Source of the DNA: Anaerolineaceae bacterium
GTDB taxonomy: Bacteria > Chloroflexota > Anaerolineae > Anaerolineales > Anaerolineaceae
Reading direction: 5' to 3'
Length of the DNA: 64,000 bases
Assembly: GCA_016841525.1 (NCBI GenBank)
Contig: JAENYZ010000001.1
Coordinates: 310,001-374,000 of the forward strand
The translations under genes and the position numbers were made by a program. The notes below the pieces were generated by a model. The model searched no databases, was not told where the DNA came from, and worked only from the letters and a program-made list of their open reading frames with translations. Below are positions 30,441-32,532 of the stretch, piece after piece; within the stretch, counting starts at the first letter, position 1; each line of letters begins with the position of its first letter.

Positions 30441-32282
30441 TTATTCAACCGTGACGCTTTTTGCTAAATTTCGAGGTTGATCAACATCCAGCCCCAACAA
30501 AGCGGCGATATGATAGGCAAATAACTGCAAGGGGATACTGGTCACCACCGGACTCAACAACCAGGGTGTTTTCGGAACCCACAGAATATTTTCCGTCAAA
30601 TCGGGAATGCGCTGATCGCCATCCGTAGCCACAGCAATCACTTCCCCACCGCGTGCCATCGCCTGTTCGATCTGGCTGATCATCTTGTCGTACCAGGGAT
30701 CCATAGGCGCAAGCGCCATTACAGGCATACTTTTATCAATCAAGGCAATCGGTCCGTGCTTCATCTCCCCGGCAGGATAACCCTCAGCATGAATATACGA
30801 AATTTCCTTAAGTTTCAGGGCACCTTCATAAGCAATGGGCATATTGATCCCACGACCCAAATAGAGCATGTGGCTGGTATCCTTGAATTTATGCGCTAAT
30901 TCAATGACGTCCTTTTCACGGCTTAAACATTCGCCCACAAGGGCAGGGATTCCCATCAAATCATTCACCAATGAATAACGTTTGTCCTCACCCAGGGAGC
31001 CGCGTTTGTCGCCCAGGTAAACTGCCAGCAAGTACATGTCAATTAAAGGTGCTGTAAATGCTTTTGTCGATGCAACCCCTATCTCCGGTCCGACCTGCAT
31101 CGAAATACAGCCGTCTGCGACCCGCATTGCCTGGGAGCCAATTGCGTTAACATTCGACCACAGAATAGCGCCTTTTTTGCGCCCCTCTTCCATCGCCGCC
31201 AGGGTATCTGCAGTCTCCCCTGACTGACTGATGGCAAGCACAACGGTATCCTTATCCACAATTGGATCCGCATAGCGGAATTCTGAGGCAATTGCCACCT
31301 CAACGGGTATCCTGGCAATCCTTTCAATCAAAATCTTACCGACCATACCCGCATGGGCTGCTGTTCCGCAGGCTGTGATAATTATATTTTTAATGCGCTT
31401 TGCTTTTCCATTATCCAGATTTAATTCGTGAAGGTAAACTTCGCCCCGGTCAAAATCCACCCTGCCAGCCAGGGTATCGGTAAGTGAGCGAACCTGCTCG
31501 TGAATTTCTTTTTGCATAAAATGTCGGTATTCACCCTTCTCAGCAGCCACCGGGTCCCATGCAATGTTCTGAACTTGAAGTTTGACCGGATTCCCTTGAA
31601 TATCCGACACCTCCACTTTATCCTTGGTGATCAAAGCCATTTGGTGTGATTCAAGGAAAACGGCGCGGCGTGTATGCTGGAGGATGGCAGGCAAATCAGA
31701 TGCCACAAAATTTTCTCCCTCACCCAATCCAATCACGACACCGCCTGCATTTCCGACACGGGCAGCAACAATTTTGTCCGGCTCGCGCGAAGACATCACG
31801 ACGATGCCGTGCGCACCCTTCAACTGCCGCAATGTTTTCCTGACAGCCTCAATCAGGGACCCCTCGTTTGAATAAAACTTTTCAACCAGGTGGACAATGG
31901 TCTCGGTATCTGTTTCAGATTTAAAAACCGTGCCTTCAGCAACCAATTCCTCTTTGAGGGCAAGGTAATTTTCAACAATGCCATTGTGGACGACAACAAA
32001 ATCACCCGTGCTGCCGATATGCGGGTGCGCATTTCGAGCGTTGGGTTCGCCGTGTGTCGCCCATCGTGTGTGACCGATCCCAATTTTGCCATGCAGTGGC
32101 GTTTCGCTGACCAGGGCTTCCAGGTGGGCTAACTTACCTGCATCACGCCGGATCTCGATGTGTCCGTTAGCCAAAACAGCAATGCCCGCCGAATCATACC
32201 CGCGGTATTCAAGCCGTTTCAATCCTTTTAAAATAATCGGGGTTGAATCTTGTTCACCAATGTAACCAACAATACCGCACAT
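30441..32282 (-). CDS. glmS: Glutamine-fructose-6-phosphate aminotransferase (isomerizing)
   Basis: A 613-residue full-length GlmS. It starts MCGIVGYIG, with the N-terminal nucleophile Cys2 of the class II glutaminase, and GHTRWATHGEPN follows. The two SIS isomerase domains carry TACGTAAHAG and ISQSGETADTLAAM. The C-terminus LAKSVTVE is canonical. It makes glucosamine-6-phosphate, the entry to UDP-GlcNAc, peptidoglycan and glycolipids. The leader holds a glmS ribozyme, so expression should fall when glucosamine-6-phosphate is plentiful. Confidence 0.97.
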   Translation of the reverse strand: MCGIVGYIGEQDSTPIILKGLKRLEYRGYDSAGIAVLANGHIEIRRDAGKLAHLEALVSETPLHGKIGIGHTRWATHGEPNARNAHPHIGSTGDFVVVHNGIVENYLALKEELVAEGTVFKSETDTETIVHLVEKFYSNEGSLIEAVRKTLRQLKGAHGIVVMSSREPDKIVAARVGNAGGVVIGLGEGENFVASDLPAILQHTRRAVFLESHQMALITKDKVEVSDIQGNPVKLQVQNIAWDPVAAEKGEYRHFMQKEIHEQVRSLTDTLAGRVDFDRGEVYLHELNLDNGKAKRIKNIIITACGTAAHAGMVGKILIERIARIPVEVAIASEFRYADPIVDKDTVVLAISQSGETADTLAAMEEGRKKGAILWSNVNAIGSQAMRVADGCISMQVGPEIGVASTKAFTAPLIDMYLLAVYLGDKRGSLGEDKRYSLVNDLMGIPALVGECLSREKDVIELAHKFKDTSHMLYLGRGINMPIAYEGALKLKEISYIHAEGYPAGEMKHGPIALIDKSMPVMALAPMDPWYDKMISQIEQAMARGGEVIAVATDGDQRIPDLTENILWVPKTPWLLSPVVTSIPLQLFAYHIAALLGLDVDQPRNLAKSVTVE

Positions 32283-32349
32283 AGACGAATGCCTCCAATG
32301 CTCATAACTGAGCTTAAGATCTGAAAATCAATAAAGACATTGACCGCTT

Positions 32350-32512
32350 CAGACTTTTTGAAATTTTTATCGCTATGGGAATCCAACTGCACTTTGCAGC
32401 GGGAGGCATCCGCCGATCTCTCGATTTTCCTGGAACCGTTCCAGTTAGCCCTGGTTCGCACCAGGGAACCTCCATCCTCGTCACCACTCCCACAAGGGAT
32501 TGGCCAGGCGCT
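32350..32512 (-). ncRNA. glmS ribozyme (glucosamine-6-phosphate-activated self-cleaving riboswitch)
   Basis: On the minus strand, 68 nt or more upstream of glmS. The conserved core is present: AAAAGCGCC with the expected cleavage between A32512 and G32511; P1 arms CCAATCCC (32503-32496) and GGGAGTGG (32491-32484); TGACGAGG (32483-32476); P2 GGAGG (32473-32469) and CCTCC (32406-32402); ATCGA (32425-32421); GGCGGATGCC (32414-32405); and a P3-like hairpin CTGCA/TGCAG (32399-32387). The known ribozyme has GGAGG-UUUA-UCGA; here about 40 nt with two hairpins (CCCTGG/CCAGGG and CTGGAA/TTCCAG) interrupts that joint. The 3' limit (P4 region) is uncertain. Confidence 0.85.
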
Positions 32513-32532
32513 TTTATCCCATTAATTAATCC

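Follow-up and report, generated by a model that had tools for sequence, protein, structure and literature searches.

The window, a 64,000-nt stretch of an Anaerolineaceae genome (contig JAENYZ010000001.1, positions 310,001 to 374,000), carried on its minus strand a glmS gene for a glutamine--fructose-6-phosphate aminotransferase of 613 aa (30441-32282, start ATG at 32282), identified by the NCBIfam glmS profile with 784.9 bits against a cut-off of 418. A leader of about 230 nt preceded the gene on the same strand. In cmscan over 421 nt, minus 32523-32313 was aligned to the whole of the RF00234 model with E 5.9e-7; its 35.9 bits lie 1.1 under the curated Rfam gathering cut-off of 37, and no RNA family came up when the whole window was scanned at curated gathering thresholds. 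The printed alignment set an interior stretch of 44 nt against 4 in the model and matched P4 poorly, indicating that the score fell short because P2 and P2.1 are separated by about 40 additional nt and a recognisable P4 domain is lacking. The initial annotation had held that a covariance score below threshold would speak against a ribozyme here. The score was indeed low by that narrow amount, at a small E-value and with 42.9 bits for a sister copy of the same genome; because the model penalises the insertion and the absent P4, a sub-threshold score is a poor test for refutation.

The RF00234 alignment placed the predicted cleavage site, within AGCG, between positions 32512 (A(-1)) and 32511 (G1). 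It was followed by the P2.2 5' strand CGCC[U]G with position 6 bulged (32505-32510), the P1 hairpin (32483-32504; RF00234 alignment, fold and covariation), the ACGAGG joint (32476-32481) with the P2.1 5' strand CGA (32478-32480), and the P2 5' strand GGAGG (32469-32473). The insertion began with hairpin 1, CCCUGGU-GCGA-ACCAGGG with a GNRA loop (32449-32466), and continued through a CUAA linker (32445-32448) to hairpin 2, CUGGAA-CGG-UUCCAG (32430-32444). Next came GAAAAUCGA (32421-32429), an A-rich strand leading into the P2.1 3' strand UCG (32422-32424), then the P2.2 3' strand CGGCG (32411-32415), the P2 3' strand CCUCC (32402-32406) and the P3 hairpin CUGCA-AAG-UGCAG (32387-32399; fold and helix covariation). 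The rest of the leader (32283-32374) gave no hit with the P4 detector.

Every element named in the initial annotation was present in order on the minus strand (cleavage site, P1, UGACGAGG, GGAGG/CCUCC, AUCGA, GGCGGAUG, then glmS), and the roughly 40 extra nt with CCCUGG/CCAGGG (32466-32461 / 32454-32449) and CUGGAA/UUCCAG (32444-32439 / 32435-32430) were confirmed. The conserved core motifs ACGAGG, AUCGA and GCGGA and the A|GCG cleavage site were retained, as was P3. Complementary strands of the double pseudoknot P2/P2.1/P2.2 were in place; P2 covaried, as did the P2.2 register, and P2.1 was nearly invariant and so gave no covariation evidence. The single-sequence fold energy of the leader was uninformative (z -0.55, from a fold program that excludes pseudoknots), and promoter and terminator scans of the leader found nothing. 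Judged from sequence and its conservation, the RNA is very likely a true glmS ribozyme that senses a sugar and cuts itself.

A covarying insertion between P2 and P2.1

The covariance model R1, which comprised P0, P1, P2, the two insertion hairpins and P3, was built from 19 glnA-associated copies. These alone were used because a combined MAFFT alignment of glmS and glnA copies set P2 of one class a base off from P2 of the other; that mixed alignment was dropped, and RNAalifold on it recovered little besides the two insertion hairpins. R1 matched in 113 of the 147 genomes of the family. Alignments to R1 held 59 (A5), 100 (A6) and 60 (A7) rows, and pairs were counted on A5 and A7. Paired cells amounted to 94.6% in A5 and 94.9% in A7, and both partners had changed in 32 and 34 of 35 pairs, respectively; these are upper bounds that overstate independence, since the alignments were fitted to the R1 structure, A5 holds the 19 sequences of R1 and the rows are related. 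None of 500 shuffles reached the observed covariation scores in A5 and A7, and when partners were slid by one base, pairing fell to 56-59% and the signal was gone.

The insertion was laid out as two covarying hairpins with a (C/U)UAA linker, followed by an AAAA run before P2.1. Hairpin 1 was paired in 96.6% (A5) and 98.3% (A7) of cells, and hairpin 2 in 97.6% and 94.7%. With a search pattern that presupposed a (C/U)(U/C)AA linker, 175 of 217 distinct copies were parsed; the linker read CUAAC in 94 and UUAAC in 36 of these, and GGAAAAUCG followed hairpin 2 in 113. Under the same pattern the loop of hairpin 1 was GNRA in 114 of 169 parsed copies, the others having non-GNRA loops. In an alignment of 47 copies, the linker columns were near-invariant, the AAAAUCGA columns were invariant and the length of hairpin 2 varied widely; the 47 had been collected from a set of 61 genomes by the motifs AGCG, ACGAGG and CNGCGGANG, so the invariance of those motifs was built in, and the filter missed three copies (L015, L019, L037). 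The double hairpin was found in 46 of the 47, with a single hairpin in L001.

RF00234 was found in 50 of the 61 genomes searched, including the window's own (E <= 0.001), and exceeded the cut-off in 21 of the 61. Two matches were present in 23 of the 50, including 11 of the 16 genomes of the window's genus. Across the class, 199 of 396 sampled genomes had a match at E <= 0.01. Fifteen parsed copies from class members had 0-1 nt in place of the insertion. Among phylum genomes outside the class, 10 of 12 loci parsed with an insertion of 42-107 nt; two did not parse. The insertion pattern was found at no fewer than 117 loci in named GTDB genomes, and of the 80 titled loci among the matches listed, all but two were Chloroflexota by name; the two exceptions ('Paludibacter' and 'Actinomycetes' assemblies) are perhaps mis-binned. 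On this distribution the insertion is a clade-wide domain found across the Anaerolineae and in the Chloroflexaceae, covarying and not peculiar to one genome. The chief finding of the initial annotation, a Chloroflexota glmS ribozyme in which an inserted pair of hairpins separates P2 from P2.1, was real and had been read correctly.

Two variants were seen elsewhere. In L060, L064, L069, L070 and L077, the P2/P2.1 insertion was missing by eye and a hairpin lay between P2.1 and P2.2 instead. At L181 (10651-11010, minus strand), two weak adjacent matches preceded glmS; the pair could well be a single ribozyme with a greatly lengthened second hairpin in its insertion.

Genomes of Chloroflexus and Roseiflexus were already public in 2011 and 2012. 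For that reason McCown, Roth and Breaker (2011) or McCown (2012) may already describe the insertion itself; no description of a Chloroflexota insertion was found in the searchable literature. By itself the insertion is a lineage variant, and the P0 helix, the loss of P4 and a glnA subclass with a shifted register are the parts worth following.

The P0 helix and the P4 domain

The stretch just 5' of the cleavage site (AUGGGA, 32517-32522) was complementary to one just after P3 (UCCCAU, 32375-32380), forming a helix that we call P0. In 198 of the 217 distinct copies, the mean duplex energy was -9.87 kcal/mol with the copy's own partner and -7.54 kcal/mol with permuted partners (swap test z -18.7); a control stretch farther upstream gave -5.83 kcal/mol. 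The z value was -15.8 for glmS copies alone, -5.9 for glnA copies alone and -2.9 for 12 ada copies. Each of the five P0 pairs had double changes in both alignments, A5 and A7, where 91.9% and 93.3% of the P0 cells, respectively, were paired. By contrast, these positions are unpaired in the RF00234 consensus, and the Rfam model has no such helix. No obvious P0 was seen by eye in copies from outside the class, and the canonical pattern gave 0 matches in the viral contigs taken as an outgroup; with that outgroup empty, the absence of P0 outside the Chloroflexota is read from Rfam's unpaired consensus. No account of the helix was found in the searchable literature. P0 would keep the cut-off leader beside the 3' end of the ribozyme, where it may either aid folding or slow the release of the product. 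In the glnA leader of the same genome (L031, 6954-6980), P3 together with the U-run of the P0 3' strand resembled an intrinsic terminator, and by this resemblance P0 and termination could be mutually exclusive there.

According to PMC11602151, the GNRA loop of P4 in the Bacillus ribozyme docks on P1, its internal-loop adenines pack on P2.1, and some P4 mutations harm the ribozyme. Here, the P4 motif was taken as AAAAC, a GNRA hairpin and GACAA. Counts are given for a relaxed detector, which found the motif falsely in 7 of 210 shuffled tails; a stricter first version missed diverged P4s. The detector was applied to copies parsed for insertion and P4, which were all but 7 of the 217. It detected no motif in the 11 glmS copies belonging to the window's genus, nor in 7 that came from two further Anaerolineaceae genera. 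The motif was present in 68 of 82 insertion-bearing glnA copies and in 48 of the 68 remaining insertion-bearing glmS copies; at least three of the detector's 20 negatives in the latter group (L227, L232, L237) had a diverged P4 by eye, and others among these negatives, the Anaerolineaceae copies L008, L010, L017, L028 and L176, showed none. Copies without the insertion had P4 in 13 of 15 cases by the detector, and in the other two by eye with CAG for CAA. In three g15 copies, only 52-58 nt separated the core from the start codon, leaving too little room for P4.

Within this sample, P4 was missing only where the insertion was present. The notion that P4 is lacking across the whole family was rejected, the glnA copies and many other glmS copies having kept it. 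The initial annotation had called the 3' P4 region hard to recognise; this held for the window copy and can now be put more sharply, the motif having been detected in none of the 11 glmS copies of the genus. Since most insertion-bearing copies retain P4, the insertion did not originate as a substitute for it. In all 11 P4-less copies of the genus, P0 and the hairpins of the insertion were retained along with the core motifs. We infer that in the window's genus the insertion, with its GNRA hairpin and its adenine run by P2.1, probably stands in for P4. Loss of P4 with the insertion kept, as in the glmS copies of this genus and of other Anaerolineaceae, was not found in the searchable literature. 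Such copies offer a natural experiment on how one peripheral domain can serve in place of another, close to the question of core and periphery studied in PMC11602151.

Copies ahead of glnA and other genes, and the P2.2 bulge

The second copy in the window's own genome (contig C1, 114824-114997) lay ahead of glnA and scored 42.9 bits with RF00234. The gene after it encodes a type I glutamine synthetase (533.7 bits, the cut-off being 429), and the RNA is hence not the leader of a glucosamine-6-phosphate (GlcN6P) synthase. This copy (L009) had a core with GCGGCUG/UCAGCG, and its P4 motif was present. The next gene among the 217 distinct copies was glmS in 108, glnA in 83, ada-like in 14, glutamate synthase in 1 and YvcK/GlmR-like in 1, with none assigned in 10 (L058, L062, L210 and L114 among them); these counts are not frequencies, since many loci were picked with the glnA-copy model, and the 108 glmS assignments were made by tblastn, with L068, where a GTPase-SIS fusion follows, apparently among them; the single glutamate synthase (gltB) is the query itself. 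A scan of named genomes, some of its loci being shared with the 217 set, gave glmS in 85, glnA in 20 and no gene in 12 among at least 117 matches listed. No link between the glmS ribozyme and glnA was found in the searchable literature.

The two groups differed in the P2.2 bulge. In the numbering of PMC7125110, with P2.2 parsed in 204 of the 217 copies (13 were not), position 4 was a purine in 90 of the 93 glnA or ada copies parsed and in 1 of 101 glmS copies. In the named set, GCU at positions 4-6 was present in 17 of 20 glnA and 1 of 85 glmS copies among the matches listed. All 57 copies with G53 had C5 or U5, and 135 of the 147 with A53 had U6; within the A53 group, all 95 copies with a purine at 4 had C5, and 51 of the 52 with C or U at 4 had A5. 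The twelve A53 copies with C or A at 6 matched none of three registers. Read from these base combinations, the bulge lies at position 6 in the window copy, at 5 in many other glmS copies and at 4 in nearly all glnA and ada copies.

PMC7125110 proposes that P2.2 positions the cleavage site and the cofactor and that positions 4, 5, 6 and 53 covary because the bulge is movable. It also reports that C4G alone is highly detrimental and that engineered shifts of the bulge to 4 and 5 partly restore activity. G at 4, as found here, differs from that C4G mutant in being accompanied by U6 and A53. The natural sequences show the proposed covariation of 4, 5, 6 and 53, and the registers 6, 5 and 4 bear directly on the hypothesis of a movable bulge. 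A glnA subclass with a shifted P2.2 bulge was not found in the searchable literature. The split of registers by gene may reflect one old duplication.

Ribozymes were also found beside other genes. In family f12, position-4 copies preceded an ada-like gene at 14 loci (L187-L193, L195-L197, L199, L202-L204); the ada-like gene of L188 encodes an AraC HTH and an O6-methylguanine methyltransferase domain. A 13-pair hairpin with a T-run lay between ribozyme and gene at the two f12 loci scanned, where shuffles gave about one such match per region, and the hairpin appears conserved at other f12 ada loci; attenuators or RNAs that stand alone are conceivable roles for these copies. In Longilinea arvoryzae and two relatives, three genomes of a single genus, the copies L126 (982-1152), L127 (879-1048) and L174 (2426-2584) had no same-strand downstream gene that we could find and were aimed into the 3' end of an opposite-strand livF-like ABC operon; by their placement they are candidate orphan or antisense copies. 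L158, beside uvrC, was a similar case.

A glmS-type ribozyme preceded a glutamate synthase gene in L205 (2551-2727; Pfam Glu_synthase, 332 bits), and the gene after another such ribozyme (L114, 1496-1662) shared its N-terminus with that glutamate synthase. Insertion-bearing ribozymes were found ahead of a YvcK/GlmR-like gene (Pfam CofD) in L073 (1506-1681) and, with P4, ahead of an FAD-linked oxidase gene in L112 (1552-1737; Pfam FAD_binding_4, 65.5 bits). A GTPase-SIS fusion protein followed in L068, L334, L326 and L355; that of L068 matched SIS (52.5 bits) and MMR_HSR1 (40.7 bits), its best NCBIfam match being MurNAc-6-P etherase, below the cut-off. In genus g15 (L115/L123, L160), a ribozyme-glnA unit was followed by a ribozyme-glmS unit within about 2 kb.

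Proposed function and relation to known ribozymes

We consider it likely that the leader is a working glmS ribozyme of a Chloroflexota type, in which P0 and the insertion give support, the role of P4 has been taken over and a sister copy serves glnA. PMC11602151 gives GlcN6P as the cofactor and mRNA turnover as the result of cleavage. We infer a corresponding course here: the double pseudoknot core (P2, P2.1, P2.2) would bind GlcN6P, held by the two-hairpin domain and by P0, which would clamp the leader to the RNA after P3. The RNA would be cut between 32512 and 32511, and the 5'-OH glmS mRNA would then be degraded, probably by RNase J, so that plentiful GlcN6P would turn glmS off. A protein of TIGR00649, the RNase J family, is encoded in the genome (581.5 bits, with 400 as the cut-off); matches to this family occurred in 13 of 14 control genomes, over the cut-off in 9, and its presence therefore says little. 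The glnA sister ribozyme, with its bulge moved from 6 to 4, would act likewise, lowering the supply of glutamine together with its use by GlmS. Most likely, GlcN6P-triggered self-cleavage would thus lower glmS and glnA mRNA jointly. Joint control of glmS and glutamate synthase (which use glutamine), glnA (which makes it) and the YvcK-like gene would make sense as one GlcN6P feedback; a simple GlcN6P regulon does not account for the copies beside ada-like and FAD-oxidase genes or for the orphan antisense ones.

A chance resemblance to the glmS ribozyme would agree with the lack of a gathering-level match in the window, but it is refuted by the comparative data (the E-value of 5.9e-7, the place before glmS and the matches in 50 of 61 genomes), and we give it practically no weight. 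Decay of the window copy into an inactive ribozyme after the loss of P4 is very improbable: the sub-threshold score, the missing motif and the harm done by some P4 mutations in Bacillus (PMC11602151) are what it would predict, yet core motifs, insertion hairpins and P0 persist in all 11 P4-less copies of the genus. It is more conceivable, although still unlikely, that the insertion is a tolerated expansion with no gain in folding or catalysis and that the loss of P4 in the genus is unrelated to it, a short core being sufficient. A 66-nt core construct was active in vitro in PMC7125110, for which reason P4 is not treated here as defining, and both the joint occurrence of insertion and P4 in 48 of 68 other glmS copies and the wide length variation of hairpin 2 suit such an expansion. 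The strong covariation of both hairpins, the near-invariant linker and invariant AAAAUCGA columns of the 47 copies and the presence of P4 in insertion-less copies (13 of 15 by the detector, two by eye) argue against it.

We also doubt that the position-4 subclass ahead of glnA has ceased to be a GlcN6P ribozyme and uses another amine cofactor or acts without cleavage. The sharp split of the P2.2 register by gene, the role proposed for P2.2 in placing cleavage site and cofactor (PMC7125110) and the position-4 register ahead of an ada-like gene in one family, which is hard to tie to GlcN6P, would be explained in this way. However, the remaining core motifs are kept, in copies that were collected by such motifs or by models of the core; bulges engineered at position 4 regained activity with GlcN6P (also PMC7125110); and glnA, glmS, glutamate synthase and the YvcK/GlmR-like gene all lie around glutamine and amino sugar. 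A bolder combination, possible but on the unlikely side, is that the position-4 copies (glnA in the Anaerolineaceae, ada-like in a sister family) form a ribozyme-riboswitch subclass of their own, possibly with its own cofactor, that arose by duplication from the glmS ribozyme, and that the insertion replaced P4 in the window's lineage. If GlcN6P does act on both leaders, the glmS ribozyme would not be a one-gene device but would have been duplicated in one lineage, and a self-cleaving RNA would tie glutamine synthesis to amino-sugar supply.

Among known systems, the glnA RNA RF01739, a glutamine riboswitch (PMC3766115), is likewise a cis-regulatory RNA named for glnA; the glnA leader here differs in having the RF00234 architecture (42.9 bits, the RF00234 match alone being considered). 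The engineered mutants of PMC7125110 likewise carry the bulge at 5 or 4 instead of 6 and re-pair to 53 and 54, whereas the registers here are natural and fixed, at 5 in many Anaerolineae glmS copies and at 4 in the glnA and ada copies. With the RF00234 ribozymes of Bacillus and Thermoanaerobacter, the window copy shares the cleavage site, P1, the P2/P2.1/P2.2 core, P3 and the place before glmS; it differs from them in adding a two-hairpin domain of about 40 nt between P2 and P2.1 and a P0 helix around the whole RNA, and in lacking the P4 motif.
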